A DNA stretch of 64,000 nucleotides from Bolinopsis microptera (lineage: Eukaryota > Ctenophora > Tentaculata > Lobata > Bolinopsidae). Both the position numbers and the translations under genes were made by a program. Each line of letters starts with the position of its first letter. Positions within the stretch are counted from its first letter, which is position 1. Below, piece by piece: positions 8,501-63,733 of this stretch. The notes under the pieces were generated by a model. That model made no database searches. It had not been told where the DNA came from and saw only the letters and a program-made list of their open reading frames with translations. The stretch spans positions 12,854,340 through 12,918,339 of the forward strand of contig NC_087081.1 of the NCBI RefSeq assembly GCF_026151205.1, given 5' to 3'.

Positions 8501-11500
8501 GCTCTAATCATCCAAATAAAGTTCAAATAACGTGCCATTACTATGTACACATGCTTCTTAGTAGTACAGTAAAAACCAAGGTGGACTTATTGGAGTATTG
8601 TCGGCAGATTGTAGCAAGGATACTGCTATATATCGTGTTGCTGTGTAGTGTGTATAGTCTCTCCGTGCTGTTGATTAGGTAGGATATTTTGTTTTTTAGT
8701 TGATATAGATTATAAACGCTGTTGTATCTTTTAGCAGGATTTTTGTGCAGTTTATCTTAAGGTTGCAGGTTGTTACTTATCTGAAGGTTGCAGGTTGTTA
8801 CTTATCTGAAGGTTGCAGGTTGTTAGTTATCTGAAGGTTGCAGGTTGTTAGTTATCTGAAGGTTGCAGGTTATTACTTATCTGAAGGTTGCAGGTTGTTA
8901 GTTATCTGAAGGTTGCAGGTTGTTACTTATCTGAAGGTTGCAGGTTGTTAGTTATCTGAAGGTTGCAGGTTGTTACTTATCTGAAGGTTGCAGGTTGTTA
9001 CTTATCTGAAGGTTGCAGGTTGTTACTTATCTAAAGGTTGCATGTTGTTACCTATCTGAAGGTTGCAGGTTATTAGTTATCTGAAGGTTGCAGGTTGTTA
9101 CTTATCTGAAGGTTGCAGGTTGTTAGTTATCTGAAGGTTGCAGGTTGTTAGTTATCTGAAGGTTGCAGGTTGTTACTTATCTGACGGTTGCAGGTTGTTA
9201 CTTATCTGAAGGTTGCAGGTTGTTACTTATCTAAAGGTTGCATGTTGTTACCTATCTGAAGGTTGCAGGTTATTAGTTATCTGAAGGTTGCAGGTTGTTA
9301 CTTATCTGAAGGTTGCAGGTTGTTAGTTATCTGAAGGTTGCAGGTTGTTACTTATCTGACGGTTGCAGGTTGTTACTTATCTGAAGGTTGCAGGTTGTTA
9401 CTTATCTGAACTCTGAAGGTTGCAGGTTGTTAATAATCTGAAGGTTGCAGGTTGTTACTTATCTGAACCGTTGGTTAAGTAATGGTATTTGTAGAGGTCC
9501 ATACCTGTAGTCAGTAGTGGTGTTTGCTTTATAGGTATCTGTAGAGTCGTAGACTGTAGAATTGTTCTGTGAAGGTATTTGTTATGATATCTTGATTGTT
9601 TTGCTTACGTCAATCCTTTTGATTTTTAACAAATTCTTTTATATTTTTAAACAGTATCTGGTGCCTTGTCTGAGCGAATCATCTAGTTTATAGGTGGCTA
9701 ATAATCAATAGCTGGCCGAGTTTGGGGGATTAAACAGCAACTATTAAACCTTTCCTAACAGTCTTAAGGAAACCAATACTTAACTGAGGTTTAAAATTGA
9801 TTGTCAGAAGAAAAAAACTTACTTAAAACACAGCCTGACTCAATTATCCAGTATTAAGGCGTGACGAGTCCCGTCCTCTAGTCAAGTAGTACAGACAATA
9901 TGTCACCACGTTATATTTGAAGCATGACCTGCTCTCCGCGACATGTAGTCATGGTAAGCAAGAAGCACAGCCCTAAGATACAGACTATTGTTATACGCTG
10001 AGGACGTTATCTCATTCTTATAAACTTCATGTGTGACATGTGACATGTGACATGTGATCTGCACTCTAGAGGTGATATCATTTAACCGTCCTGGTGTCTT
10101 TAGTCACTCCACCTTTCTGTTGCGGGGAAGGTTTAGTAAAGTGCTGTTTTCAGGGGAATGTTCACATTGTTGTTTTTTTGTTTCTGTTTGTTAAGTACTC
10201 AATACGTCTTTATTTTAGTATGAAGTAGGTACAATGGCTATTAGAGGGTTGTTAGTGTCTCATTAGTGTCTCATTAGTGTCTCATTAGTGTCTAATTAGT
10301 GTCTCATTAGTGTCTCATTAGTGTCCCAGTGTTTATCGAGCTGTTATTGTGTTCCAGGCTACAGTCATGTTGGTAACGAGTCTACCATAGTTATCTTTTG
10401 TATCACAACTTGATATTGTTTACTTTTAAATCTAGCTTCCAAATTTGTGTCCTTTCCTTTTTTCTAGCTCTCAGCTTAACTATTAGCAATTTGGTCAAGT
10501 CCTAAGACCACCAATGTTCGTTTATTGTTCTGAATCTGCCTCAGATTCTGTGAGCTTTTGTGATCAACACAAGATATTTGTCAATATATCCCCCACAATG
10601 TCCCCCACAATATCCCCACAATATCCCCACAATATCCCCCACAATATCCCCCACAGTATCCCCCACAATATCCCCCACAATATCCCCCACAATATCCCCC
10701 ACAATATCACCCACAATTTAATGTCCCCACAATATCCCCCACAATATTCCCCACAATCCCCGACTTTACAGCTTCGACATGACGTCAGGGTTGTCAGTAA
10801 TAGGAACACAGTTATGTGAGCCAGACAGAAGAGGATTGATCAGTGGTCCAGGGCTGAGACTAAAATCTGGTTATGCTCCAACTCCTAATAAAGAGTAAGG
10901 TTAAATGGTGAAAATTCCAGGCTTATTGTCATGTGATTCCATGCTATGTGTCACGTGATTTTGACATATATCCCGGATGAATAATCCCTTGTGGCTACAT
11001 GCTGATTACTGCCTCCAGTTATGTTTGATCTTGTGAAATGATTGCTGATGTAATGTTGAGCTACATACATTTGCAAATTGTATTGACGAATTTTTGACAT
11101 TTTTGACATTTTTCTCCATCCTTTCTTGAATGTTCGGACAAAAAGAATTGGACCAAAATTGGGCAAATATGAACTTGCCGTAAACCTGCAGAAAGTTATT
11201 AAAAGATTGATGAGTGCATAAGTTGCTTTCGATTGATTTCTACGACGATATCATTTTTGGTCGATCAAGCATCAATAGTTTTTTCGTTCTCATTATAAAT
11301 TTAACTAATAATAATTTAATATTCTTAAATCAAAAGTATTACAACAATTGCAAAAGTTTTATGATGATATGATATTTTTCTAGCTCTCTTTTTCCATGTT
11401 TTTGCCTCACAGGAGATATTTTGGTCTTTTCTACTGAATATAACTGTAATACATTGATGTAAAGTTTATTTGAATTTTGAAATAAATAAAATGACCGGCA

Positions 11501-37749: not shown

Positions 37750-37999
37750 GGTGAAGCTCTAGGTCGTGACTCTAGATTGTGACTTTAGGTTGTAACTCTA
37801 GGTTGTAACTTTAGGTCGTGACTCTAGATCGTGACTCTAGGTCGTGACTTTAGATCGTAACTCTAGGTCGTGACTTGAGGTCGTGACTTGAGGTCATGAC
37901 TCTAGGTCGTGACTCTAGGTCATGACTCTAGTGCGTGACTTTAGGTCGTGACTCTAGGTCGTGACTCTAAGTCTAGGTCGTGACTCTAGGTCGTGACCA
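37750..37999. repeat. 13-bp tandem repeat (AGGTCGTGACTCT)
   Basis: About eighteen copies of a 13-bp unit with CTTT/CTCT and GTGA/GTAA variants. Isolated copies (TAGGTCGTGACT) also occur at 35590-35650 and 36090-36115. Non-coding. Confidence 0.92.
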
Positions 38000-43050: not shown

Positions 43051-44975
43051 CAAATAGATCTTAAGGCTGAGCGTGAGTTTGAGACGAATTTAGCTTTCAT
43101 TTTAGACTTCACGTCTCCCGAAATAAAACTGCGAACAAAGTGAAACAAGGAACTAAGTAAACTGTAAAACCAAATTTTCGTCACGCATTGGACTTTATCA
43201 AGGTTACACTGAAAAGGGGAGGTTTGATCTCTGAACCAGAGAGTGTGGTAATTGGGTTAGGAAAGTAAACATACATGCGACAAAGATCAGGGTTACCATT
43301 TTCAGCAAAATTTATAGAAAAGAGTGTACACATACATGCGAGAGAAATCGGGTTACCAATAAGAAAAATCACAATGTAGAAAAGTTTACAACCCTCAGAT
43401 CAGCGTAGTAAAAGTGTACTAGAAATTAGTCTGTAAAACCGTTTCCGCACATGTTATTGATTTTCGGTTTAGTGCGTTCTATTGCTAAGCCTTCTCTTAT
43501 AAAGGTATCTAGGGTATCCTTACATTGTTCTGATATGCTAAATTCGAAGTTTTCGAAGAATTTTGCTAAGTCTCTTTTTCCCGATATGGGAGTGTAGTGT
43601 GGGTCGTCTGCTCTGCGGTGTTCAGCAGCGTGGTATCCTAGTGTGGTCCTGCTGTTGTTGAGTCGGAAGCTAGACTCGTGTTCGTAGATTCGACCTCTAA
43701 TAGGTCGTCTTGAAGCTCCTATGTACAGATCTCCGCATTTCTTACATTTTGCTTTGTACACGTAGTGTCGGGTGGTACAGTTGAGATCTGCCTTGCAGAG
43801 TTCGCACTCGCATATCTCGTCTTTAGATGGTGTGCTGATGATGCTCCTGACAGCTTTCCCCGCCTGTGTCACTACTCTGGCGTTTATTCCCAGTTGCTTG
43901 ATCGATGAGTTGACTCTCCTGGTAAAGCTCTCGTTAATGTACGGTATCTTCAGGATAAGGTCGGGTTCTGGCCGGGGTTCTCGTGGGGTCGAGCTTGTTA
44001 GTACTTCTAGTCTCTCTAGAGCTTGTAACATGTGTTTTGTCACGACTTCTTTGGGGTATCCGGAGTTTACGATCAGGTGAGTTTTCAGTTTTTCGAGGTA
44101 TGCCCAGCTGTCATCCTTGTATTTGCAGTTGTGAACTATCCGCCTAGTCTCCGACCTGATGATGTTTGTTTTGGTGACTAGACTACAGTGTGAGTCGTAA
44201 TGCAAATATCTTCCAGAAGCCGTAGGTTTTTGGTAGTGAGTGAAGGATATTTCATTGTTCTCTTTTAGCTCAATGGTGAGATCAAGGAAAATGAGCTTTC
44301 TATCTTCTTGAAGTTCGCTGGTGAAGTTTACATAGGCCCAAACAGAGTTCAGATTGGCTTTGAATTCCTCGAAGTTTTCGGCGCTTGACTTCCAGAGTAA
44401 CCAGGCGTCGTCAACGTACGTGGAAAGGCACTCCGGTTTGTGGGAACTCTTTTCTGCTGCTATATTGTAGGTGTAGTCGACGATGATTTCTGCGTATGCG
44501 CCTGAACTATTCGAATTTAGCATATCAGAACAATGTAAGGATACCCTAGATACCTTTATAAGAGAAGGCTTAGCAATAGAACGCACTAAACCGAAAATCA
44601 ATAACATGTGCGGAAACGGTTTTACAGACTAATTTCTAGTACACTTTTACTACGCTGATCTGAGGGTTGTAAACTTTTCTACATTGTGATTTTTCTTATT
44701 GGTAACCCGATTTCTCTCGCATGTATGTGTACACTCTTTTCTATAAATTTTGCTGAAAATGGTAACCCTGATCTTTGTCGCATGTATGTTTACTTTCCTA
44801 ACCCAATTACCACACTCTCTGGTTCAGAGATCAAACCTCCCCTTTTCAGTGTAACCTTGATAAAGTCCAATGCGTGACGAAAATTTGGTTTTACAGTTTA
44901 CTTAGTTCCTTGTTTCACTTTGTTCGCAGTTTTATTTCGGGAGACGTGAAGTCTAAAATGAAAGCTAAATTCGTA
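43051..44975 (-). mobile_element. Penelope-like retroelement with about 465-bp inverted arms
   Basis: Arms 43082-43548 and 44510-44974 are inverted copies. A 63-codon stretch translates identically in both (43372-43181 and 44686-44877), so the arms are nearly perfect and the insertion is recent. The core encodes reverse transcriptase and a GIY-YIG nuclease. Inverted partial copies flanking a 5'-truncated core are a known insertion form of Penelope-like elements. ACAATTTATAAC is found just left (43039-43050) and just right (44976-44987) and is a candidate target-site duplication. Confidence 0.85.
43426..44607 (-). pseudogene. 5'-truncated Penelope reverse transcriptase with GIY-YIG endonuclease
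   Basis: The uninterrupted frame has 393 codons. The first 30 or so come from the inverted arm and are not part of the original protein. Next come RT motif C (STYVDDAWLLW), the thumb-like region (FLDLTIELKENNEISF, HYDSHCSLVTKTNIIRSETR), a CxC zinc-knuckle-like stretch (ICECELCKADLNC) and the GIY-YIG core (YVYKAKCKKCGDLYIGASRR, RIYEHE). It ends KINNMCGNGFTD. RT motifs A and B are missing, so it cannot retrotranspose by itself. The reading frame is otherwise intact, consistent with young age. Confidence 0.85.
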
Positions 44976-47309: not shown

Positions 47310-50300
47310 ATGCTCGCTTTATCCGCAATCCAAAATTTTCCGACCAAGCTAATCAACCCTTTCAAATCCGTGGTTCTAGACGACGGGTTTTCAAGGTTTA
47401 ATCGAATTTATTTGTTTTTCATCTGCCTTCTTGCTGGTGCGTTCATCAACCTTGCTGATTATTCAGGTTTGTTCATTTGTCTCTTTGAAGCAATGACACA
47501 TAGCACCATGACGTACACAACTATTTAATACCTGCAAATAACTTGGTAGTATTTGTGATATAGTTGTATATTACTTAAGTAAATACACCAATTATAACTG
47601 TAATTGTAATTCGGCAGTGGAATAACGGACTTAACTTGGATGGACCAGACTTTATTTGAACGGACATTAAGATAAACGTTAGGGCCTCCAGCGTTCAATC
47701 AATGTTCTTTCGCAAATAAAGTCCGATATAAAGTATAACTCAGCCAGTAAAATATACACTAACAGTTTAATAGTAATAGCTACTGAATCATTGATATAAC
47801 CTACCCGCAGGTCACAAGGTAAAGTGCCACGGTTTTCAAATCTTCCCAGAGAACTTTGCTGACGAGTACTGCTGGGTACAGGTAATCACACGTTTTATAT
47901 CGAAACCACTATATATTATATTTATCGCCATTCGATTAGATTTTTGACCGGGGAAATCCTGAAATAATAGCAAAATATTGATTTTTTTGGACCGAAAATC
48001 GGGTTTTCGTGATTTCAGCCGGGGTAACTTAGTCAATAATTTCAGGGTATGTACGTGATAAAGAATGCCGGGGTAACTTAGTCAATAATTTCAGGGTATG
48101 TACGTGATAAAGGAAGCCGGGGTAACTTAGTCAATAATTTCAGGGTATGTACGTGATAAAGGAAGCCGGGGTAACTTAGTCAATAATTTCAGGGTATGTA
48201 CGTGATAAAGGAAGCCGGGGTAACTTAGTCAATAATTTCAGGGTATGTACGTGATAAAGGAAGCCGGGGTAACTTAGTCAATAATTTCAGGGTATGTACG
48301 TGATAAAGGAAGCCGGGGTAACTTAGTCAATAATTTCAGGGTATGTACGTGATAAAGAAAGCCGGGGTAACTTAGTCAATAATTTCAGGGTATGTACGTG
48401 ATAAAGAAAGCCGGGGTAACTTAGTCAATAATTTCAGGGTATGTACGTGATAAAGAATGCCGGGGTAACTTAGTCAATAATTTCAGGGTATGTACGTGAT
48501 AAAGGAAGCCGGGGTAACTTAGTCAATAATTTCAGGGTATGTACGTGATAAAGGAAGCCGGGGTAACTTAGTCAATAATTTCAGGGTATGTACGTGATAA
48601 AGGAAGCCGGGGTAACTTAGTCAATAATTTCAGGGTATGTACGTGATAAAGAAAGCCGGGGTAACTTAGTCAATAATTTCAGGGTATGTACGTGATAAAG
48701 GAAGCCGGGGTAACTTAGTCAATAATTTCAGGGTATGTACGTGATAAAGGATAACTTAGTCAATAATTTCAGGGTATGTACGTGATAAAGGAAGCGTTTG
48801 ATCTCCCTCAAGATATACCGTATCCTGGGGTTGTACCAGAGAACCTCCCTTGTCTTGATTTCTTGTGAGTTTGTTCAAGTTTAAAATGTCCATATGCGTG
48901 ATTTGTTGTTTGATAATTCATGAGTTCACGTTTGGATTAAGTGTATTCAGAATAAAATGTTCTTGAAAGAATTATCAAATGAGACTAAATAACAGTAAAG
49001 AAGACTGAGTAACAGTACACCACTAAGTAACCAAGTTATCCTCCAATAAAATCATCACTCCCCCAGAAGAACGGACAATACTGCGTACAAATGTCCAGAG
49101 GGGGGATCTAAACCTTTAACCAAGGTTAAGTTGCTCTGGTACCAGGTTTGTGAGTTTGTTTGTTTGTTTGTTTGCTTGTATCTTTGTCATTTTCGTTGTC
49201 TACTTGTTTGTTTGTTGATTTGTCTGTTTTTCTGTAAAACAATACTACAATATGAAATAATCGGTTTATTATTTTCCTGATGCTGCCCCATATTTTTACC
49301 TTACCATAATCTTTCAGTGGATCCCCCTCTACTTCTTCTTGTGCGCAGCCGTGTTTGTTCTACCTTACATCATCTACCAACAATCTGAAATAGGAGCCAT
49401 CAAACCGATATGTGAGCAACCTATTGTATTACATTTATCGAGTTATAGTTTCAAAATTTAACGTAAACTCTGCATTTTTAATTCAAATTGATGGAGTACA
49501 GGTGAGCAGGTGATTGTAGCAAACAATCGATTTATGTGATTTCTCTTGGAGAATTTCTCTTTAGACTCTTAACTTGCGAACAAATTGAAGCAGCAAACTT
49601 CAGGCTAGAAACTTTATTGAATTGAAATAATCATTCCACGTAACAACGTCTTCTTCAGTTCTGTAACAAAATTGTTAAACATGTGTAAAAATTAACGACG
49701 GAAAGAAATTTAAAATAACATTAAAACAAAAACAGAGAAATAAAATTTACGAAATATGACCCAAAAATGTAATTGCAAAAAATGTCAAAACAACAAAAAA
49801 TACGACAAGAAGAAATGTAAGCTAATATAACTAAATACTGTACTACTCATGTTACTAAACTAATTAGTAAACGTAAAACTGGTTGTTCAGAATTCACAGT
49901 TCATGTGTAAAAACTAATGATAAAATCAGCACTTAAGCAACGATAACTCGGTTGTCATGGTTACTATCCAAGATCCTATCAATACATTATTTACTAGTTA
50001 AACATCGACTAAATATTTGTACAAATAACTCAACTCAGAACGATCATTCATTTCAGGACTTAATCTCAATATATACATCGCTTCTACAATCTTTCTACGA
50101 ACAGTTTTACTCTGTAAATCAAGTAACTTAAAAGATAAAACTGGGGTTCGGTTAGGATGTAGAGATGCGTAGTGCTGTCCAACCCCATTCTCTGGATGTG
50201 CTCTAGGATTCCTAGCAGCCTGTCTGTGCTCCATCAGACGAGCATGGAGGCTTCTCTCAGTTTCCCCACAGTGTCTCTTACCACATAACTCGCAAGTAAC

Positions 50301-53300
50301 TAAGTAAATAGCTCCTTTTGTTGAGCATGTTGTTCCTGTGAGTCTAGGGCAGATCTCACAATTGTTAGGGTTACCAAGGTCACAAGTCTTCTTATCCAGT
50401 GGACGAGAGCGGCAGAAGATGTCCTGTAACTTCTTACCAGGTGTAAAAATAACTCTGATGGGGAGTTTGTTAGATTTGATGTAGTTGCGAATCTTATTAC
50501 AAACTGTTCCAGAGATGAATGGTAAGGTGAGTGGGACAGAGTCAGGTGTGGTTTGACGTCTTCTCCTAGTCCTCCTGTTCCTTGCGTTATGACTCAGAGG
50601 TTGGTGTCCATGTTTCTTTAAGAGATCATCGATGATCTTAACTGAATGATCGAGTTCCTGGGGTCCTGAGGAAGCAATGGTGGCATTACGGTAGAAGTTC
50701 TTCTTACACTCCTCCTTCACTGAGTCCGGGTGGTGTGACTTCTGGTGTAATGTTATCCCCTTGTTCTGGGTTTTCCTGTAGAATCTGTGGTGCACTTTTC
50801 CTTCCTCATCGATCCGGATTTCCGTACTCAGGAACGGGACAAAATCCGCAGGGGTAGACGGGAACTCGATCTCCCACTTGATTCTGTTATCGGGATCCTG
50901 GTCGGCTATGCGTTGTAACATATCCAGTGCTTCTTCTCTGGATTTGGCTAAGGAACCAGCATCATCTACATACCGTTTGTATAAGAACCGAACAGGGTTA
51001 CTGATGTAATAACTGTCTAAATATATACTATTACGCTCGAATTTCCACATTCTAATAATCGCTACAGGAGGGGATGGTCTACAACCCATGAATAAACCTA
51101 AAAGTTGTTTATAAAGTCTCCCATTAAATGTAAAATAAGAATTCGTCAAAACTACTGTAAAGATACCTCTAATTTCTGATAAACTTAAACAATACGTACT
51201 TAACTTACTCCAATGTTCTTCTGCAAATTCAATAACTGTCTCAATACACTCATTGATATTCAAATTCGTATACAAAGCTGATACATCCGCTGTAAAGAAC
51301 TGTAAACCTTTAAGTTCACTCTCTGGTAGCCTTCTTGTCGTATTTTTTGTTGTTTTGACATTTTTTGCAATTACATTTTTGGGTCATATTTCGTAAATTT
51401 TATTTCTCTGTTTTTGTTTTAATGTTATTTTAAATTTCTTTCCGTCGTTAATTTTTACACATGTTTAACAATTTTATTACAGAACTGAAGAAGACGTTGT
51501 TACGTGGAATGATTAATGATTATTTCAATTCAATAAAGTTTCTAGCCTAAAGTTTGCTGCTTCAATTTGTTCGCAAGTTAAGAGTCTAAAGAGAAATTCT
51601 CCAAGAGAAATCAAGTTCAAATGCGACTCATAAATATAGCCCCCTTGAACTAATCGATTTATGTATTACGAGATATTAATTATTATAATAATTAATTATA
51701 ATAATTCAGGTAAATTATTAGCAAGCTCCATGGATGATGATGAGGAAGAGAAGATAAAAATTGACAGAGCTAGTTTGTGGCTTTCAAAGAGGATGACGGG
51801 ATATATCAAAGCTAAAGGTCCTATAGAGTTTTTATTCGTGAAACACAGGTATAAATCGCCCTCACACTTTCAAGATCGCCGAATATAATGTTTCCTTTGA
51901 TGTTTTTCCTCTCCCGAATTCCAGCAGACGTGGTATTGAAACAATAAAAAGATAAGGTGGCCGAAAAAATTTCAGTATGGAAACTGGATGATTGGATGAC
52001 ATGTATAATGATCGGAGACTACCTATACCTTATCGGACTTTATTTGAACGGACATTATGATTAATTGGACGCTGGCATTGTAATGTCCGTTTAAATAAAG
52101 TCTGACAAGGTAGTTAAATTAAACATATTGAATGAATAGAATGCCTTCGAGCGATTATTCAAATATCCGCTCAAAACCATTTCCGTTCACGCAATGTCCG
52201 GTAAAATAACGTCCGATAAGGTATGTTGAAGATCGATAACAAATTGATTCATTCAATCTAACAGCAGTTAAAATGTCCAGGATGTTTGCTGAGGTGGTGT
52301 TTAACAAAGTCTTAAACTTGGTGGTAGTCATTCTGGTCCTGTACGGAACAAACAAGGTTTTCAGAAAATAATAATTTCTAAGTTGATATATATCAATTAA
52401 TCATCACATTTCGTCGATCGTGATTATCATAATTAAGTAATCATATCTTTATATTATTATCTTTACCTCATTTTATATTGTTTCCTCACACATGCACGCA
52501 AACACACCTATAATTATATAAAATCTATTTCTCTCTCAGATATTCCAGGTGTCCTCCTTTGCTTCATACGGGGTTGACTGGATAAGGTACATGTCATCAA
52601 CTGATAACACAGGTCAGGATATATTATTGGTATCTTTTTAAACCTATTTTCACCTTATTATCCTTGCATTTTGGGTGCCAGGCTATCCTGAAAATGCCCG
52701 TAAGAGCTTCGATCTACTATAAACCTTATCGGACGTTATTTGACCGGACATTTTGTGAACGGACATAATTTTGAACGGACATTATAATGAACACTCAAAG
52801 GCATTCATTTAATATATTTAATTTAACTGCCTTGTCGGACTTTATTTGAACGGACATTAAAATGAACGCTAGGGCCTCCAGCGTCCAATTAATGTCCGTT
52901 CAAATAAAGTCCAATAAGGTGTTCATAATTTGATCTACTTGATTTTGATTTGATTTAAAACTTTTACAAATAGTACATATACAATACAGCAAAGAGAATT
53001 TAAAATAAACGACGTCATGGGGTATTATGCTGTGTAAAAGTCGTAGACCATATTGTAGAAATACTAAAAGCATGGGTAAGTGGTACAAGTTCTGGGGATA
53101 TACGTATTACAGGTAATATTTCTACCCCCAGACTCACTAACACCACCTCCATCTAAACACACAAAATTAATCTAGAACACACAAAAATAGAATTGTCAAA
53201 ATAAATAATATAATGATAGACAATGTCACCACGATGCGACCAGAGATATGGCAGCAATGAGAAATAATGCATAATTGCACTTCGTATGGTAATACTTCTA

Positions 53301-56300
53301 AAGTTAATTTAAATAAACAACTTATAGGGTGGTTCAAAACTTAACCCAAAGTTGCTCAAATCTTTCTGAATCAAAGCTTTAAAACTAGTTTATCCATATA
53401 ATATATATAACACAGGTGTGGATAGTCCGCAAGATAAGCTGTTTCCTAAAATGGCGTCCTGCGAGGTGGAGGTCTGGGGAACTACTGGCATTGTCAACGA
53501 AGCAGGTTTACGTAAATCCGGATTGGAATATTGTTTATGAGTCGCATGGTTACAATATATTCTTGTGTAAATTTGTATTGATCCCGTTTGATGCGGTAAG
53601 GAAAAATGCTCTTATCAGGAAACGTTGAGTAATTCCTTTCCTGATAAGAGCATTTTTCCTTGTCGAATCAAACGGTATCAATACAAATTTACACAAGAAT
53701 ACGAATCAGGTTTACTTTTAGTAGTAAGCGGAGACAATACATGAAATCGAGTCCTGATTGTATGTATTTAGGCAGAGAAAAATCAATCATTACTCAATAC
53801 AAAATATATCCTTGTGTTTAAACATACTCACTATACCAGGGATGTGTGTGCTGGCCCCGAATGTAATAATCTCCTACTTCTTTCTGATATTCTGGTTCCT
53901 CCTCTACATCTCCCTCATTGGAAACGCTGTATCCCTCTTTTTCTCTACCTCCACTTACTTCTTTACTGCCGGTCTGTGAAAATCAGCTATATTTTTAATT
54001 GTTATGGTCACAAAGCAAATGTTTGGTGATGATCTATTGGTTTGTCCAAACAATTTCTTTGTTGAACGAATTCGCCGATAATATTTTCCCCAAAACTGTA
54101 ATCTATCTGCACCCCGGTAACGATATGATTGTCACCGTGGTCTCCAGATATAGAAAACCGAGTTTCTGGTATTTAGTGTATGCTAGTCAAGCTCTAGTCA
54201 GGTAACACGAACGGCAGGGCGTACCGTATGGTAGAAATGAAACGAATAAATTGAAATGGAGAAATAATTAAAAAGATAAGTAATACAAAGTGAACGTCAA
54301 CATATAAAGCTTCTAATCCAAACGATTGACGTGAATATAGATCACTCGACGTGTCTAATCACAAAAGATAGTGCTCAGTCAGACTGGCTATCGTCAATTC
54401 GAATCCCTTAAAATGATTAAGGGGCAACATAGAAGTGAGCTCTCCACTTCCGGCTCTCCGGGTATACTCTCAAAACTCCTCACGCCATACTGCGTGACGG
54501 CACAACGCATCTGCTTGCACCACGTGACACGCTGTCTCGCCAATGTGCACTCCACTAGCAGTCACCCTGCGGCCGCGAGGACCAACCACAGGCTTGGCTA
54601 TAGATATCTGTAATAGAACATACCACTATTTCCAAAAATTGAAACGCTGTACCGTAGCACACAACACAAAAAGTAAAACTACTGGTAAAGCGTCCTCAGA
54701 AAAAGAAAACCCTATATTTACCTAGCCTTGATGAGGCCTGCTTCGCGATTGCTATTCAGCGATGTGTGCTCCACAAGTCAACACATACCTGAGTTACAAT
54801 CACGGTTGCAGTTTTATAACTCACAATTAAAATTTCCTCGTTATCGGCCGAAATCAACAAATACACGCATCAGCTATAAATATGATCCATACACACATTT
54901 AAATCAAAGTAATTATATAGATATAAAAAACACTGGATGTTACACCTTAATCTTATCTGCACTGAAAATCTTGCCGTCTCTAATATAATGATACTTTGTT
55001 GGCTGAGCAATGATCATTTCCTTTACTTTGACAACAAGTTTCTGATGAGCTGCTCTCTCCTCCTTGTTTCTGTCAGGTGTGATGTACCATGTGTGGTACG
55101 CTGTACATTTAGATTTCTTCAGATTTCTTGCTCGACCAAGAACCATTTTTACTGATTCCGCACAAGCCAATGTCACTTTTATCGGTCTCGGTTTACCACT
55201 GCCTGAAGTTTTTTTAGTCCCGATCGAATTTGCTGCCACAACTTTAGGATCACATCCTGATAATTCCCAAATCAATTCAATCACTTCTTCTGCCACTAAG
55301 TGTGTATCAGGGGAGTAATTCTCCGGTTATACACCGTAGATAATGAAATTCTTACTACGGATGACATCTTACAGCTGTCTTTATACTGTTGATCGACGGA
55401 GTACTTGTAGATGTCTCGCAGTTCTTCTTCACGATGTCGCTCCACGCTGTTTTCATCTCGGTATGAACAGTTGTTTTAAAAGAGTCGAGTTGCTCCTGTT
55501 GCTGTTTGATCTGGTCTTTCTAATAGTTAAGCTGATCTGATTTAAGTTTGTCTATCGTACTGGCCGTACTTTTACATAATTCAAGATTACTAATCATCAG
55601 CTTAGAAAGATTCTCAACTGCAGTAGCCAACGGATCTTTATTTACGGCCATTAATCTCGAATGGTTCAGTTCTGTAACGCTTTGTGCTTTTGACATCTTC
55701 AAAATCTCATTCATCGCTGACGATAACTCATTTTCAAATCTGTTCAGATGTTCGACGGAAAAATCCATTTTACAAAAGGTAAGGCGTACAGCACGACGTG
55801 TCGGTGTAACAGCAAGTTGAGATAACACTACCGATAACAGAGCAATTAAAGTGTTGCAATAGCTAGAATAAAAGATTGTAACTGAGAATAAAAGATTGTA
55901 ACTCTCGTCGGAAACACATACTAAATTCTATGTCCCTTAAAGGACTAAAGGTGCACACCGCGAATTTTGCAACTTTGGCTAAAATAGTAATAGGGCGTGA
56001 AACAGAAACATTGTGATTTGTTTCGCAGCGTTGGTCTAATTACATCACCCTCAAATTAGCGATCAAAGTTTTCGCTTCCTAGAGAGATGCAGCGTCTTAG
56101 GAAATCAAGGAATGTAAACAGTGTGGATTGTGGCTTGAACATTGCTAATTTTCTGAATTGTTTTGTGACCTGCTGGTTTCCGATCTTATCGGCCAAAACA
56201 AAGGCTGTGTTTCTTCGATATTTTAATAGATGGAATAAATTTGTACACAAATTCTACGCGTTTTATGTGCAAAACTACCCTGACTGTAAAATCATTATAT

Positions 56301-59300
56301 ATTATCCATTGAATTACTAAATCCAGCGTATTTTCCACTAGAGGTCACTCTAACAAATAAAACAAAACTATTCCAATCAAAATCTAGATCGGTCAAGCAA
56401 GGTTGACTTTTTTGGAATTTTTAGTCCCGTGATATTCTTAGGAATTGTTCTTTTCACGTACTGACTTTCCTTGAGCATGGTGGCTATACTGCGGGGCTCT
56501 TTTCCCTCTCCAACATAGTCCCACATTCCTTGCAAGATATCCTTTCTGTAAGAGTAGTCCTTGTTGATGACTCTGCTTTTGCTTACATATTTCTTTTGGC
56601 TCTTAGAATAGGACCAAAATTCTTTTCTGTTGCTGGTTAAGTTCTTATTGATTTCTATAGCAATAACCATAGAGCCCACTACTATTCTGTTTAGGGAATA
56701 GGGAGTCCGTTTAGGCAAGAGCTTTAGTCTCACATTGTGATAAACTTCCAAAGCCCCTGTGTGTAGAAAGTTACAACACAACTGGATGGAACTTATGAAG
56801 CGGGTGCTGGTGAAGTACTTGAATAAAGAGGTGAATCCTTCACTTTCTATTTCAAACCACTTTAGCCCCTTTAGCGTCCTGTGTTTTACCCTTGAAGAGT
56901 GATCGCAGTGCTTCACTTTATGAAAGTAAGGATATAGCTTTTCAGAGGTCAAAACAATTTGCTTCTTTCTTTTTTCATTCCGTTCTTTCTGCAGTTGTAG
57001 TTTTAGAGGCTCGAAGGGATCGGCTGTCCAGGCGTGATGGTTATGTGCAGTAAAGTCGAATGAACCCTTTCCACTAACTCTTTCGGGTCCCCTGCACATT
57101 TCTTACAGCTATACCAGAAATGATTGACGATAGGGGCAACAAACTCCGACAGCTTCGGTAGTTTTTTAGACATTTCCATGAGCTTTCTTTTCACCAGCCT
57201 CGCTTTGTGCCAAATATCATAGTTGTGAGTAATACTGGTAAAGAAGGTCCTCATCAGCTTTGCAATCCTCGTATTCTCATCGGTCACGAAGTGTCGGACT
57301 TTCAGCCCTTGGCTAACAAGGTTGAGTAGGACTTCCTTGCACGCAAACGTTTCCAGGTCGCCTCTGTACATTCCCTTTTGGGCGACGAAAAGGTCAAGAA
57401 TTGCACCTGTCTTGATATCTAGAATGCTATAAGTGCAAAACTTCGCACACCAACCGGGCGAGTCGAAGTGCCCATCTCCTGCGATGTCAACGTGTTCCAA
57501 CCCACTGCGACTCTCTAGCAAAGCTGTCCTCATAGACGTCCATTGGTCGACGATTATAGGGTATAGATTGGTCGTGTTGTTTTTATAGAAACTTGAGCAT
57601 GTTATGTATGGAACAGATAAACAAGTCATGAACGATTCTAAAACACTATAACTCATCCCGCACAAAAAAGCTGCAGCAGAAACTACAAGGTTGCACTCAT
57701 ACTTTTTCTGTCTCAGGCGTGAGCTTCTCCAGACTCCTTCGTGAGGCAGAATACCATAACACCTGTAATTGACCACTATGCCAAATCCAGCACAGTTTAT
57801 CCTCTTGATGACTGACCGGGCTCCGCATTCGGGACAGAATTTAAATAGGGATAGTAGTTAGGGCACGCTTATAATGGCCCAACAAGCGTTTGTTGTGAAT
57901 GATTCTACGCTTTCATCAATAACTGGCTCATCATCGTCCGTGAGGTCATCCAGTTCAAGATCATCCAGCTCTATAAAGTCACCTTCTTCGGAAAATGAAG
58001 AGTTGATATCTTCATTATGTAAACCCGTGTCAAAGTCATCATCATCATCTTCATCAGTAGGTTGGCTATCTTCACTGTCAGTTTCTGAGAAGTAAAGCTC
58101 GTCGATCTCCCAAAAAGAATCAGGTTCAATGTTAGAACAGGATTCGTTGGTTGTATCCTGCGCAATATCTATGCCATCAGTTGACCCTGCCGGTTGCATT
58201 TCAACTAATCTTTCTTTAGGGGGTGGTCGTTTTGACATTGTTTTGACTAGGGGGTTGGCGAAACTACCAGTTCTTCGATCTGTATTTGGTACACTATCGA
58301 CTTTCAAGCGAATCAATGTGCGAGTTTCAGGATTGGCTCGAGCATGATATCGTTCCAAATCACCCTCTTGAAAGTCATCCAGGAAAAAGTGATCAGTACA
58401 AACTCTTGTACTAAGGCTGGGTTGCCATGATCGTGAATCTCTATTCATCCTCACAACCCATTTTTGCTTTAAAGCTTGATTTGTGGGTAGTCTGATGTAT
58501 CTTAGAAATCCTCTTCCACTGTGATCACTTACTTTCTTTCGGCTACTACGATTCGAGCAAGCACCCACAGCACAAAATGATCCTCCTGGTTTCCGCTTCT
58601 TCGAAGGTGGTTGTTCAGCCATTCAGCTACTTTATTTCTGTAACATCGTTCGAGTATTGAAGAATGTATTGAAGAATGTGACTAAGAACACTAAAATAAC
58701 TCGTGATATTATAACTTGTAACTAGTGATAAGAGATGGCAAAGTTAAATAACTAATCGTGTTAACAATAACAAACTACTAGTGCTCAGTATTACCGGTTA
58801 AAACGAATGTGTCATGATTGCGTGTAAGAGACAAACGTGGCATTGCAAATGTAAACAACGTAATAGTGAGAGGAGAGTAAAGAGAGAGAGTGATAGTACG
58901 CTGCATCTCTCGAGCGACCCTAATTTTGGTGGCCAATTTAGAGGACGACACCCTAACTTGTGTGTCCCTAAATTTTGCGGAAGTTAATATATTCGCTTGA
59001 CTATCAGATTGAGTTGAAAAACAAAAATGTTAAAATTTTTTCCCTATCTCGGTGTGCACGTTATAGTTATAGTAAACTAAGATATCCTAAAAGATATCTC
59101 TAAATACCATATTACAACATCTCTACCCAAAAATTTTTCGAATATTTTAAAACAATAAAATAATCGCCCTTTTCAAAATTTAAATTTCAATGCTTCCACG
59201 CATCAAAAGTCCAAAACTTAAAAATAGTCAAGCCTCAAAGACAAAATATAATACACGGCCCTAACCCTGTGCATTAAATTTAAATCCTCAAAATACTAAA

Positions 59301-60413
59301 ATTATGAATTAAAACTAAAATTGACTTCCACAAATCTTTCAAAACTTTCCAATACTTCCTTTTCGCACCAAGTTGAAAAGTCTTTGGTTTTGAGTCTTCA
59401 TCATTAGATAGAGATGTATTTGAATCTCTAAATCGCCCTTGACAAGCAACCAAAGAAGTCAAACTAAATACGAAAGTTTCTAAGTTTCCGTCACTAAAGG
59501 CGTAAAGCAGCCCTGAGCGAGTCGTGTTACGTGACTAGAGCTTTGACTAGCATACACTAAATACCAGAAACTCGGTTTTCTATATCTGGAAGCCACGATG
59601 GCAAAACTAATACTTCAAATTAAGAAATTAGAAATAAGAAATCGTGCCACTGATTATCATTCAATCAATCTCGAGTACTCGAGTAATAATACGTCTTATC
59701 GCTCCCCAGCACGATGGAGAGCATTTGTAACCTCAACGTTTATGGTCACAACTAATGAGGGGAAATGGCTCTTCATGAACTCAGGTATTTTATTTTAATT
59801 TTACTTGAGAAAAGACAATTTTTGTTGAGAAAAGACAATTTTATTATTTATCACCAATTCATTACACGGTCAATCAATAAATATGTATTCGAATAAATAA
59901 TAACCAACTAAATTTTAACGCTAGATGGTAACATCAAACATACAGTTATAAATGTACTTGAGTGCAAAGTAAATGAGAAACTTGTTATTCACATTCCTTT
60001 TTAGACTAGAGAGTTTCTCTGACAGGGTGCCGCGTTTTATTATAGTTTTAATTCTCCTTCCATGCTGCATGATTTACAACTTTAAACTATTAATTTTAGA
60101 ATAACAATAATTATTAAAATTATTGTTTCATTAAAATAATTGTTTTATTAAATTAACTGTTCTATCAAAATAATAGTTCTATTAAACAAATTGATTCATT
60201 AAATTAATAGTTTAATCATTGTACTCCCCTGCAGGTATGAGCGGACAGATAACATTAGAACTGCTTGCTAGTAACATTCCCCACCACACATTTGAGAATC
60301 TGTTTAAAAGGGTTTGTGAGACAGTGGTGTTGGTACAAAACCAGGAGGTACTGGACCAAGTCTACAAAAGAAAAAGTTACAAGAAGAGTGAGAAGGCAAC
60401 CTTTAGAGCTTGA
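47310..60413 (+). CDS. Innexin (gap-junction channel subunit)
   Basis: Exons: 47310-47466, 47811-47881, 48773-48864, 49067-49145, 49318-49411, 51710-51848, 52281-52356, 52540-52612, 53416-53505, 53840-53975, 59568-59784, 60235-60413. All junctions keep phase except 53975 to 59568 (phase 2 to 0), where a small exon or another splice site is still missing. The product is about 465 aa. Features in order: N-terminal cytosolic helix, TM1 (RIYLFFICLLAGAFI), first loop with two cysteines (KCHGFQ...EYCWVQ), the YQW motif and TM2 (LLWYQWIPLYFFLCAAVFVL), TM3 (VLNLVVVILVLYG), second loop with two cysteines (MASCEVEV...MCVLAP), TM4 (ISYFFLIFWFLLYISLIG), and a cytosolic tail. Innexins form hexa- or octameric hemichannels joining adjacent cells. 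Start codon: ATG after upstream TTG, matching the family's short N-terminus. Confidence 0.85.
47646..47728. mobile_element. MITE module (GGACTTTATTTGAACGGACATT family)
   Basis: GACTTTATTTGAACGGACAT at the left and CAAATAAAGTCCGATA at the right form a roughly palindromic 80-bp element around AGGGCCTCCAGCG. It matches the 52028-52221 and 52724-52919 elements and lies in innexin intron 1 (47467-47810). Confidence 0.7.
48018..48793 (+). repeat. 49-bp minisatellite that contains an innexin 3' splice site
   Basis: Fifteen complete units plus a shortened last one. Each unit holds GCCGGGGTAACTTAGTCAAT, then AATTTCAG and GGTATGTACGTGATAAAG. The last 18 bases are the first six codons (GMYVIK) of the innexin exon that starts at 48773, and TTTCAG is its acceptor. 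Thus 15 upstream copies (AG at 48045 through 48731, every 49 bp) precede the genuine acceptor at 48771-48772. Units differ only in AAAGGAAG/AAAGAAAG/AAAGAATG. From any decoy acceptor the frame meets a stop (ACT TAG) within about 12 codons, so only the last site yields innexin. Confidence 0.95.
49538..51651 (-). mobile_element. Penelope-like retroelement in an innexin intron, with 13-bp TSD
   Basis: AATCGATTTATGT occurs at 49525-49537 and again at 51652-51664 as a target-site duplication. Inverted arms lie at about 49538-49813 and 51341-51613 (for example TTCTCTTGGAGAATTTCTCT and its complement). A further 38 bp at the right end closes with AAGTTCAA...TTGAACT, a small hairpin. The element sits antisense in the intron 49412-51709. 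It belongs to a different subfamily from the 43051-44975 copy. Confidence 0.85.
49998..51335 (-). pseudogene. Penelope-like reverse transcriptase plus GIY-YIG nuclease, 5'-truncated
   Basis: The frame is open from about 51335, where it leaves the inverted arm, to the stop at 49998. It contains RT motif A (FFTADVSALYTNL), motif B region (QLLGLFMGCRPSPPVA), motif C (RYVDDAGSLAK), thumb region with VPFLSTEIRIDEEGKVHH, a basic linker (RNRRTRRRRQ), a CxxC-rich knuckle (NNCEICPRLTGTTC) and GIY-YIG (GAIYLVTCELCGKRHCGET, RLMEHR). The N-terminal region before motif A is missing, so it is probably immobile. The nuclease half is complete and intact. Confidence 0.85.
52028..52221. mobile_element. Two-module MITE, copy 1 (TA-flanked)
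   Basis: The element starts CCTTATCGGACTTTATTTGA and ends AATAACGTCCGATAAGG, with TA on both sides (52026-52027 and 52222-52223). It has two palindromic modules joined by an AT-rich spacer, and TA duplications suggest Tc1/mariner mobilisation. It lies in the innexin intron 51849-52280 and is inverted relative to copy 2. Confidence 0.75.
52724..52919. mobile_element. Two-module MITE, copy 2 (inverted to copy 1)
   Basis: CCTTATCGGACGTTATTTGA ... CAAATAAAGTCCAATAAGG. The reverse complement of 52028-52221 aligns along the whole length, including the spacer (AAAGGCATTC...TTTAATTTAACT). It lies in the innexin intron 52613-53415. The two copies enclose the exons 52281-52356 and 52540-52612. Confidence 0.75.
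53558..53701. repeat. Foldback with about 65-bp arms and short loop
   Basis: TATTCTTGTGTAAATTTGTA ... CTCTTATCAGGAAA (53558-53625) is inverted at 53636-53701 with only a few mismatches (for example GATCCCG/GATACCG). It lies in the innexin intron 53506-53839, just after an exon. Its origin is unknown; it may be a small foldback MITE. Confidence 0.85.
54130..54210. repeat. Inverted partial copy of the innexin exon-11 acceptor region
   Basis: Read on the minus strand, this segment matches 59523-59600. It covers GTTACcTGACTAGAGCTTGA, CTAGCATACACTAAATACCAGAAACTCGG and TTTTCTATATCTGGA with a handful of differences, and similarity fades on both sides. It therefore copies the last intron bases, acceptor and first codons of the innexin exon 59568-59784 in inverse orientation, 5.4 kb upstream in the same intron. 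Confidence 0.75.
54421..55936. mobile_element. TTAA-flanked element with short ends, carrying ORF1-like remnants
   Basis: TTAA at 54417-54420 is followed by GGGGCAACATAGAAG. The other end reads TTCTATGTCCC before TTAA at 55937-55940, an imperfect inverse with a 3-base indel. Inside are two minus-strand coding remnants. Because the inverted ends are short and imperfect this is a tentative boundary call. Confidence 0.35.
54940..55828 (-). pseudogene. Broken retroelement ORF1-like protein (coiled coil plus RRM-like part)
   Basis: The first part (55828-55520) is a coiled-coil-like segment starting near MDFSVEHLNRFENELSSAMN. After a stop and degraded sequence (55519-55300) the second part (55296-54940) reads VIELIWELSGCDPKV ... 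KPRPIKVTLACAESVKMVLG ... WYITPDRNKEERAAHQKL ... HYIRDGKIFSADKIKV. The pattern 'PRPIKVTL, vL..A..Lk, isPDrt.eER.. .kL, iRnGKI' is common in ORF1 proteins of animal LINEs. Coverage and exact clade cannot be settled. Stops separate the parts, so it is inactive. Confidence 0.55.
55941..59061 (-). mobile_element. THAP/Kolobok-type DNA transposon in innexin intron 10
   Basis: The coding core is 58622-56377. Imperfect inverted ends bracket it: GTGCACACCG near 55950 against CGGTGTGCAC near 59060, and GAGAGATGCAGCGT at 56083 against ACGCTGCATCTCTC at about 58898-58911, at similar distances from the core. TTAA occurs at the left edge (55937-55940), but I do not see a clean TTAA on the right, so the right boundary is approximate. 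The element fills much of the large innexin intron. The region 59062-59520 has no gene. Confidence 0.6.
56377..58622 (-). pseudogene. Kolobok-like transposase with N-terminal THAP zinc finger, inactivated
   Basis: From 58622 the frame starts MAEQPPSKKRKPGG and gives a THAP domain (CAVGACSNRS ... FLRYIRLP ... KWVVRMNR ... CTDHFFLDDF), followed by a very acidic region (SETDSEDSQPTDEDDDDDFD). A single in-frame TAA at 57858-57860 interrupts it. The same frame then continues with CPECGARSVIKRI and the transposase core (GDGHFDSPGWCAKFCTYSIL, VRHFVTDENTRIAKLMR, THNYDIWHKARLVKRKL, NHFWYSCKKC). A frameshift near 57060-57090 leads into the last part (HTGALEVYHNVRLKLLPKRT, PYSLNRIVVGSMVIAIEINK). The core motifs match the Kolobok-type proteins known from many animals. 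Only one nonsense change and one frameshift are seen, so decay is recent. Confidence 0.75.
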
Positions 60414-61950
60414 CCCAGGACTGCTTCTTGAAGGCAACCTCTAGAGCTTGACCCAGGACTGCTTTTTGAAGGCAACCTCTAGAGCTTGACCCAGGACTGC
60501 TTCTTGAAGGCAACCTCTAGAGCTTGACCCAGGACTGCTTCTTGAAGGCAACCTCTAGAGCTTGACCCAGGACTGCTTCTTGAAGGCAACCTCTAGAGCT
60601 TGACCCAGGACTGCTTCTTGAAGGCAACCTCTAGAGCTTGACCCAGGACTGCTTCTTGAAGGCAACCTCTAGAGCTTGACCCAGGACTGCTTCTTGAAGG
60701 CAACCTCTAGAGCTTGACCCAGGACTGCTTCTTGAAGGCAACCTCTAGAGCTTGACCCAGGACTGCTTCTTGAAGGCAACCTCTAGAGCTTGACCCAGGA
60801 CTGCTTCTTGAAGGCAACCTCTAGAGCTTGACCCAGGACTGCTTCTTGAAGGCAACCTCTAGAGCTTGACCCAGGACTGCTTCTTGAAGGCAACCTCTAG
60901 AGCTTGACCCAGGACTGCTTCTTGAGGGCAACCTCTAGAGCTTGACCCAGGACTGCTTCTTGAAGGCAACCTCTAGAGCTTGACCCAGGACTGCTGCTTG
61001 AAGGCAACCTCTAGAGCTTAACCCAGGACTGCTTCTTGAAGGCAACCTCTAGAGCTTAACCCAGGACTGCTTCTTGAAGGCAACCTCTAGAGCTTGACCC
61101 AGGACTGCTCCTTGAAGGCAACCTCTAGAGCTTGACCCAGGACTGCTTCTTGAAGACAACCTCTAGAGCTTGACCCAGGACTGCTTCTTGAAGGCAACCT
61201 CTAGAGCTTAACCCAGGACTGCTTCTTGAAGGCAACCTCTAGAGCTTGACCCAGGACTGCTTCTTGAAGGCAACCTCTAGAGCTTGACCCAGGACTGCTT
61301 CTTGAAGGCAACCTCTAGAGCTTAACCCAGGACTGCTTCTTGAAGGCAACCTCTAGAGCTTGACCCAGGACTGCTTCTTGAAGGCAACCTCTAGAGCTTG
61401 ACCCAGGACTGCTTCTTGAAGGCAACCTCTAGAGCTTAACCCAGGACTGCTTCTTGAAGGCAACCTCTAGAGCTTGACCCAGGACTGCTTCTTGAAGGCA
61501 ACCTCTAGAGCTTGACCCAGGACTGCTTCTTGAAGGCAACCTCTAGAGCTTGACCCAGGACTGCTTCTTGAAGGCAACCTCTAGAGCTTGACCCAGGACT
61601 GCTTCTTGAAGGCAACCTCTAGAGCTTCACCCAGGACTGCTTCTTGAAAGCAACCTCTAGAGCTTGACCCAGGACTGCTTCTTGAAGGCAACCTCTAGAG
61701 CTTCACCCAGGACTGCTGCTTGAAGGCAACCTCTAGAGCTTGACCCAGGACTGCTGCTTGAAGGCAACCTCTAGAGCTTAACCCAGGACTGCTGCTTGAA
61801 GGCAACCTCTAGAGCTTGACCCAGGACTGCTGCTTGAAGGCAACCTCTAGAGCTTGACCCAGGACTGCTGCTTGAAGGCAACCTCTAGAGCTTGACCCAG
61901 GACTGCTTCTTGAAGGCAATCTCTAGAGCTTGACCCAGGACTGCTTCTTG
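60393..61950. repeat. 38-bp minisatellite, about 41 copies, starting inside the innexin last exon
   Basis: The unit GAAGGCAACCTCTAGAGCTT plus GACCCAGGACTGCTTCTT is repeated with few variants (CTTAACCC, CTTCACCC, CTGCTGCTT). The first copy includes the final innexin codons GCA ACC TTT AGA GCT and the stop TGA (60411-60413), so the array forms the whole proximal 3' untranslated region. Variants cluster in the second half, suggesting directional expansion. Confidence 0.97.
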
Positions 61951-63449
61951 ATGTTGTCTAGTGTGGGTTTCTTTTTTGTTTTAGGACACTTTGTAACATT
62001 GTGAGAAATAACATTAGGTACTCATATTCAAAGCTTGTGTTTTTTCCGTAAATTGGGCTGATATCATCATAAATACATCAAAACCTGTTGAAGTACAAAT
62101 ATTAAAAATATTCTCGATTATTTATTGTTTTATGTGATCTGCAGATTATGGTATTTAAAAATCTTTTCTTCTTGTCCCGAGTTTTGTTAATTGTTTGCTT
62201 CGTACCAAAACAGAACACAACGAAAATATAATCTTTCAGCACTCAGCGAATTCATCAATTACTGACCTGCTCAAAAACCGTGTTCTCTTATTAAAACTTG
62301 GTTTCTCGTTAACTAATGAAGCCACATGTATGCTTGCTCTGCAGTGTTTAGCTGATTTGATTTAAGAACAATTCGTGTTAGCATTAGAAATGTCCAATTA
62401 GCTCTATCACTTGTAAAGTTGAAAGATTGTACTGTAGACTGTGGAAAACGACTTTACACTAGACTAGTTTTTCGTTGTTTAACAGTAGTGGTTAACTGCA
62501 CTGTAGTGGTTTGTTGCACTGGTGACGAAGCGTGAGCTTTATAATCAACTGCCGAGAAGTTGTCTACCACAGATCCAAATAGAAATAGGGCAGACAGCTC
62601 CTCTACTAATACTGTGTTAATTAAATTTTAATGAGCAAAGGAATTTGTTGGAATCGTTACCTACTACACATAACTACAAAACTAAACACCCTTACAGTGT
62701 GCAGACGATGTAAGCAGCTGTTTTCTACAAATACTGCGTTAATTCTACGTTTTTTAAATAAAGTGAGTGTTTTTCAGTTTTTGTGATTTATTCATGTGTT
62801 CACATTTTCAGAAGTGCAGGTATTTCAAGGTAAGAAGGTAATAGATTCATGAATAAATTGTGGAAATCTCTGACATCCAACATCACACATTTATGATTTT
62901 AGCAAAGAAATGAAATCATAAATATGTTTTGTCAATTATCACTTAATTAAACTAAAACATTCGGAGGCGTCCAAAAATAATTAGTGACCATAAATAATCC
63001 TTAAAATAAATAAAATGGAAATTATACGAATTTCATGGGTCGTTTATTTAACCACCCTATGGGGTACCTACAGCCGCAGGTTCAAAATCTTAATTATTCA
63101 AATTATTCCGTACACTGCACCGAAAGGGGGATTTATTTTAATTTTATCACATCAGGTGTTATTAGGTTTTCATGTATATTTCTTAGAACCGCATCTGAGT
63201 CATCAAGTTATACGCATTGTCAATGTTTAGTATCCTTGTAAACCTCTTTTAGGCGTTCCTGACTTGTTTTTGACGAAATGTTCGATTACATACTGTCATC
63301 TTAATAATTAAAACCTTATTAATTAAAATTTGTGATGATGTTTGGATCACTTGTCTAAATTAAACTATGTGTAAAAATAGAAATTACGAATTCTCTCAAT
63401 CTACAACTAATTTCGTAACTTTAAACTTTCATAATCATCTATAGATGCA
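61951..63449. other. AT-rich DNA without recognisable genes
   Basis: I see no coding exon with splice sites or family motifs, no RNA gene and no clear element ends. Short open frames at 63015-63241 lack homology and codon structure. The innexin polyadenylation site presumably lies at or beyond the end of the minisatellite. Confidence 0.6.
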
Positions 63450-63733
63450 GTATGGTAGGTGCAGTATGGTAATTGGTAGCTGCAGTATGGTAGCTGCAGT
63501 ATGGTAGCTGCAGTATGGTAGCTGCAGTATGGTAGCTGCAGTATGGTAGCTGCAGTATGGTAGCTGCAGTATGGTAGCTGCAGTAAGTATAGCTGCAGTA
63601 AGTATAGCTGCAGTATGGTAGCTGCAGTATGGTAGCTGCAGTATGGTAGCTGCAGTATGGTAGCTGCAGTATGGTAGCTGCAGTATGGTAGCTGCAGTAT
63701 GGTAGCTGCAGTATGGTAGCTGCAGTATGGTAC
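63450..63733. repeat. 14-bp tandem repeat (TGCAGTATGGTAGC), about 20 copies
   Basis: Head-to-tail copies with two variant units (TGCAGTAAGTATAGC) in the middle. The long YHTAATILQLPYCS-type frame on the minus strand is a by-product. The last 270 bases of the window contain short CAACATGCCCTCA repeats (63910-63950) and nothing coding. Confidence 0.95.

Follow-up and report, generated by a model that had tools for sequence, protein, structure and literature searches.

How is one 3′ splice site chosen when sixteen, sharing the same core, stand in a row in front of a single exon? Engineered duplications are the usual means of studying how competing 3′ splice sites are told apart. A 64-kb stretch of DNA from the comb jelly Bolinopsis microptera (C10:12854340–12918339, in an assembly of 264.65 Mb and 232 contigs), here termed the window, presents the problem in a natural setting, where a minisatellite repeats the junction between an intron and the following exon.

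The host gene of the array is probably an innexin, a gap-junction gene. Four innexin exons are readable at 47310–49411 (Table 1), and the joined exons match Pfam Innexin (PF00876) with an E-value of 5.3e-10, the query having carried two mistyped residues. Further exon-like pieces with approximate boundaries lie downstream; the last three were located by tblastn with paralogues and the first two by eye only. Intron 2, which contains the decoys, would be 164 nt long if the extra repeat units were removed.

Table 1 Features of the innexin locus, in window coordinates.
Feature	Position	Strand	Remarks
Innexin exon 1	47310–47466	+	First in-frame Met at 47310; ends ...FINLADYS + G
Innexin exon 2	47811–47881	+	GHKVKCHGFQIFPENFADEYCWVQ; CAG at end; ends set by eye and acceptor-context analysis
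MITE-like repeat, left part	47881–47982	+	First base (GGTAATCACAC) at exon 2/intron 2 joint
Intron 2	47882–48772	+	891 nt, GTAATC...TTTCAG, phase 0
MITE-like repeat, collinear interior part	47984–48046	+	Reaches internal CAG; 9-nt insertion; includes TTTCAG 48013–48018
49-bp minisatellite	48017–48795	+	Acceptor spacing 14 × 49 nt and one of 41 nt; AGC at both borders
15 decoy acceptors TTTCAG	48040–48731	+	AG ends: 48045, 48094, 48143, 48192, 48241, 48290, 48339, 48388, 48437, 48486, 48535, 48584, 48633, 48682, 48731
Last unit	48732–48772	+	41 nt; AGCCGGGG missing
Innexin exon 3	48773–48864	+	92 nt; GMYVIKEAFDLPQDIPYPGVVPENLPCLDF + TT; donor GTGAGT
Innexin exon 4	49318–49411	+	WIPLYFFLCAAVFVLPYIIYQQSEIGAIKPI; ends by eye
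Further innexin exon-like pieces	51700–53975	+	About 51.7–51.87, 52.27–52.35, 52.53–52.6, 53.39–53.51 and 53.83–53.98 kb

The array, to which TRF assigns a period of 49, 16.1 copies and 97% matches, is far beyond chance. It holds 16 TTTCAG/GGTATG joints (48045–48772) between exons 2 and 3, with the first exon bases at 48046, 48095 and onwards to 48732 in 14 steps of 49, and then at 48773 after a step of 41. Each repeat unit combines 26 nt of intron end with 23 nt of exon start, the latter amounting to seven codons plus 2 nt, with six codons invariant. The tandem repeat spans the intron–exon boundary, which we place from the reading frame and the paralogues, and in this it has the anatomy of a mirage. 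The first-pass annotation had counted 15 decoys, with AG ends from 48045 to 48731, before a real site at 48772, and had these coordinates right; its unit of TTTCAG plus the first six codons of the exon stands for the motif and the invariant codons, and the exonic part extends to 23 nt.

Only two positions vary among the 14 complete units, in uneven order along the array, which suggests homogenisation that is recent or still under way. An 8-bp deletion is private to the last unit; because AGCCGGGG is absent from that unit, the real acceptor is without both the G-run and the donor-like stretch GGGTAACT. AGC flanks the array on either side (TTTCAGCCGGGG and GGAAGCGTTT), an arrangement compatible with a first duplication through 3-base microhomology. 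An additional TTTCAG at 48013–48018 is followed by CCG GGG TAA (continuation by eye). Elsewhere in the 264.65-Mb assembly the unit was not found: a two-unit query returned eight matches and a 23-nt unit pattern with at most two mismatches returned 16 forward and no reverse matches, all of them at the locus (control pattern, none), the DNA search used for unit copies being one that may miss repeats. The locus is present as one copy in the assembly, and the copy number of the array rests on that copy.

Only the 16th acceptor preserves the innexin frame. The product spliced through 48773 has two residues between YCW and GMY, matching the paralogues, and 16 uninterrupted paralogues likewise have two residues between a YCW-like triplet and G. 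Entry through decoys 1–14 meets a stop after 11 codons, and through decoy 15 after 17; productive use of the 15 decoys was considered and rejected, as there is a stop in every frame. Leakage to the decoys would lead to early stops and then, probably, to nonsense-mediated decay. These results bear out the earlier placement of an innexin exon junction at the array, with the two residues kept as in the paralogues, and the claim that the upstream acceptors carry stops and leave the 16th as the sole productive site, its use being read from the frames. The stop had been put about 12 codons in, which is correct in that all 15 decoys stop early, the actual distances being 11 and 17 codons.

The acceptors had also been described as identical, and they are so from −21 to +18; agreement among the 16 is limited to this span. 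GGGG beginning at −25 precedes all 15 decoys and is absent from the real site, for which 45 nt upstream were searched. The exon would be 92 nt long if spliced from the real site versus 133 to 819 nt from the decoys. Exon 3 holds its own GGGG further downstream (by eye), so that the real exon is not free of G-runs. RNA structure that might mask the decoys was sought in three folded stretches, whose z-scores (−0.89, 0.54 and 0.59) were nothing unusual, and Rfam gave no matches across the window at gathering scores. We propose that splicing would occur mostly at the last acceptor, which lies nearest the exon 3 donor and gives the shortest exon, and which alone is free, through the 8-bp deletion, of the G-run upstream of each decoy. 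As a counterpoint, the decoys are transcribed first and could be favoured.

Two known systems bear on this choice. In lancelet mirages, splice sites are duplicated and splicing is reported to be regular (PMC3087553, PMC3902484); according to the former report, mirage sites could act as cryptic splice sites (PMC3087553). In human CBS 844ins68, an acceptor is duplicated together with the exon start (52 intron and 16 exon nt; PMC2630376, PMC7490669), the duplicated sites being termed ‘donor’ in PMC2630376 versus 3′ splice site in PMC7490669, and the more distal of the two sites is described as strongly favoured (PMC2630376). To go by its title alone, a 2010 paper cited in PMC7490669 concerns G runs as silencers of pathogenic 3′ splice sites in CBS 844ins68. 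CBS 844ins68 is a human polymorphism with one extra copy, in contrast to 15 here. To our knowledge, no transposon is involved in it. By analogy with both precedents, mostly normal splicing with some leakage would be expected at the comb jelly locus.

Other accounts of the array seem less likely to us. The acceptor core common from −21 to +18 and the early stops from all 15 decoys would also suit a rheostat, with the spliceosome picking among 16 acceptors by kinetics or chance, most transcripts stopping early and copy number setting channel output, a tuning role that the first-pass annotation had proposed and that gained no support here; lancelet mirages reportedly leave splicing intact (PMC3087553, PMC3902484), CBS 844ins68 is reported to favour the downstream site (PMC2630376), and the real site is set apart by its G-run context and donor distance, and we consider such a rheostat very unlikely. 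We give hardly any credence to nested splicing, in which mini-introns of 48 nt (GTATGT...TTTCAG), one per unit, would be removed stepwise to trim the array before the outer splice: every unit does contain G/GTATGT and TTTCAG, but such an intron would be very short, an extra G would remain after each step, and the donor-like GTATGT also occurs inside exon 3. The array length might itself be an artefact, one or a few real copies having been expanded or miscounted. Polishing can homogenise tandem copies. For the published B. microptera assembly, wtdbg is given as the assembler and pilon as the polishing program; against an artefact stand the two variable positions in uneven order, the deletion private to the last unit and a length of 0.8 kb, short relative to long reads, which make this explanation, in our estimation, distinctly unlikely.

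Where, then, did the intronic half of the unit come from? The array had been held to be built from an innexin splice site; the joint is indeed that of the innexin, but its intronic half resembles a MITE-like sequence. A genome search with 47800–48060 found 23 dispersed places besides the locus that match the left part of the intron at 76–95% identity, and in six of them the match starts precisely on the final base of exon 2. We fetched 20 of the 23 places, plus 14 stretches (one from the remaining three) through a 23-nt left-end pattern that, with at most two mismatches, gave 29 matches (control, none). A typical copy of the element is about 390–430 nt long, starts with GGTAATCACAC and ends with GTGTGCAAATC, and the family has subterminal inverted repeats, as judged by eye. 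Because a search with one element copy yielded 530 candidates, 40 of which were scored, the family may be large.

Several copies carry signs of transposition. Among nine copies of 329–430 nt, target duplications are perfect in three (9, 9 and 10 nt) and reach 8/10, 9/10 and 10/11, then 6/9, 6/9 and 7/10, in the remaining six; the offsets are the best of several, so the weak ones mean little. Four of the 13 copies with paired ends (L028, L029, L031 and L034; pairs 93–305 nt apart, with doubtful right ends) were excluded from this set, although the shorter pairs at L028 (93 nt, best 9/10) and L034 (98 nt, best 7/8) may represent genuine copies with an internal deletion. When the empty sites of 13 paired-end copies were rejoined, open reading frames of at least 60 aa ran across seven, none of them convincing as a spliced gene. 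The L034 element was considered as an intron and rejected: its 141-aa frame depended on a misplaced right end, and that frame reaches its stop codon before the element starts. Only intron 2 appears, from its sequence, to be an intron among the element copies.

Six of the nine both-ended copies were aligned with intron 2, and all six match it collinearly from element base 1, with approximately 80–110 nt of the element middle missing from the intron. The intron TTTCAG aligns with a CAG inside the element (CTCAGG in four copies, CCCAGG in one and CGCAGA in one), the stop of the alignment at that point being partly by construction, as the query ended at TTTCAG. The element letters after the internal CAG (ACCACTTTT or similar) are unlike exon 3. 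In 8 of the 20 fetched loci, none of 500 letter shuffles reached the score of the likeness between element interior and repeat unit; at the remaining 12 the anchor motif had hit a different place and scores did not exceed those of shuffles, so those loci say little. Intron 2 is thus like dispersed elements and has an element boundary at its splice site, as introners do. Intron 3 of this gene served as a control: its matches were confined to GTTT-rich sequence and one small internal segment, and neither end matched a repeat. At intron 2, where the element lacks its right end, no flanking target duplication was found; by the account of PMC9860276, some introner families do not show such duplication.

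The paralogues point in the same direction. Sixteen of 17 fetched copies are uninterrupted at the position of intron 2, in a single frame, and the matches of three near-duplicates left unfetched likewise span the joint. Homologous genes that have no copy of the element there thus also have no intron 2, the homologues compared being paralogues of one genome. One of them, L042, with about 50% identity both in exon 1 and in exons 2–3, has introns 1 and 3 in common in position and phase, with intron 2 absent; L043 is as close over exons 2–3, closeness being taken from identity, without a tree. The exception among the 17 (L052) has an intron 1 nt away from the intron 2 position, in phase 1 (L052:370–551), which is possibly a second gain at the same CAG/G. 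That this intron is another transposon copy was rejected, as a search with it matched only itself.

The L052 intron can be turned into an argument for an old intron unrelated to the MITE, inside which the element landed and which most paralogues then lost. We think this unlikely: with element base 1 at the donor and the internal CAG at the acceptor there is little room for an older intron, and 16 of the 17 fetched paralogues are uninterrupted, L042 having kept the neighbouring introns and not intron 2. Absence from the paralogues and the match of the element boundary together favour gain by insertion as most likely; gain at CAG/G through some other route, or repeated loss of an old intron, is possible.

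Under gain by insertion, a MITE-like DNA transposon (GGTAATCACAC...) would have inserted at ...TGGGTACA/GGG within a coding exon, its first bases supplying the donor (CAG/GTAATC). A later deletion between two CAG stretches would have joined the internal CAG of the element to the exon, creating the acceptor, and the MITE/exon joint, bounded by AGC, would then have been amplified in tandem into the 49-bp minisatellite, which would make it a mirage as the term is used for lancelets. The locus has neither the right half of the element nor a second target copy; we infer the deletion from this loss, which leaves the insertion itself a putative event. The whole scheme, from MITE-born intron 2 through tandem amplification of the joint to splicing mostly at the last acceptor, is in our judgement somewhat probable. 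We put forward as a tentative possibility the more specific proposal that a borrowed acceptor was amplified to 16 and the productive site marked by an 8-bp deletion of a silencing G-run, within a transposon-born comb jelly intron; if true, the locus would offer 15 natural internal controls for 3′ splice-site marks beyond the 39-nt core.

By anatomy the array is a mirage, situated inside an intron of probable transposon birth. As described for lancelets, its tandem units join intron end to exon start and carry AG acceptors, and it shares with lancelet BflGb6 the geometry on the acceptor side, inner copies that are almost identical and a boundary copy that deviates from them; BflGb6 has six and three units of 150–160 bp in two haplotypes, against 15 extra copies of 49 bp here. 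Unlike the lancelet mirages, the present one resides in a comb jelly, has a transposon-like intronic half and is known from genome sequence alone. Minisatellites at exon–intron boundaries of human duplicated genes are described as a potential source of novel introns (PMC2812944); these average about four units of 30 bp, in recent paralogues, and are likened here by description. With introners as described in PMC9860276 the intron shares DNA-transposon features of its repeat family, an element boundary at the splice site, a kept frame and a donor from the element, whereas the acceptor would here derive from the element interior after loss of its right half. Ctenophores are unmentioned in the main text of that report, a slender basis for claiming that introners or mirages have never been described in comb jellies.

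Mirages and transposon-born introns are each known; the present locus stands out in bringing the two together, in its 15 decoys and in having a single site free of the G-run. The locus offers a natural test of splice-site choice, in which 16 acceptors share one core (−21 to +18), a single site is productive and the transposon origin is traceable. Should RNA reveal that the last site is used cleanly, context (G-run and donor distance) can be separated from the core signal, and mirages as reported from lancelets (PMC3087553, PMC3902484) would be extended to another animal lineage and linked to intron gain from transposons.

Minisatellites also occur in introns of other innexins. In three paralogues (L047:299–501, L050:327–501 and L054:258–492), the intron following ...PYPG opens with a minisatellite about 4–12 nt inside the donor, made of 22-bp, mixed 15–35-bp and 28-bp units, respectively, and containing no exon letters (donors by eye). 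A 22-bp array recurs in L003, from the same C10 stretch as L047, and ends about 90 nt before the next exon. Two pairs of innexin matches have identical scores (C1:4254005 and C1:4378223; C7:6754013 and C7:6935049) and may be recent duplicates or unpurged haplotypes.

The window contains further repeats and mobile elements. TRF lists long minisatellites at 8752–9467 (28 × 25 bp), 60392–61951 (41 × 38 bp, 98% matches), 63442–63732 (21 × 14 bp) and 37757–37997 (18 × 13 bp). Long open frames on the minus strand at 49998–51383, between innexin exon 4 and the next innexin-like piece, and at 43426–44628 look by eye like pieces of Penelope-like retroelements; in Pfam, 43426–44628 matched GIY-YIG and 49998–51383 had no match. 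Two adjacent minus-strand frames, 57003–57857 and 57858–58622, match a Mutator-like transposase (PF20700, 1e-10) and a THAP domain (3.3e-10), respectively.
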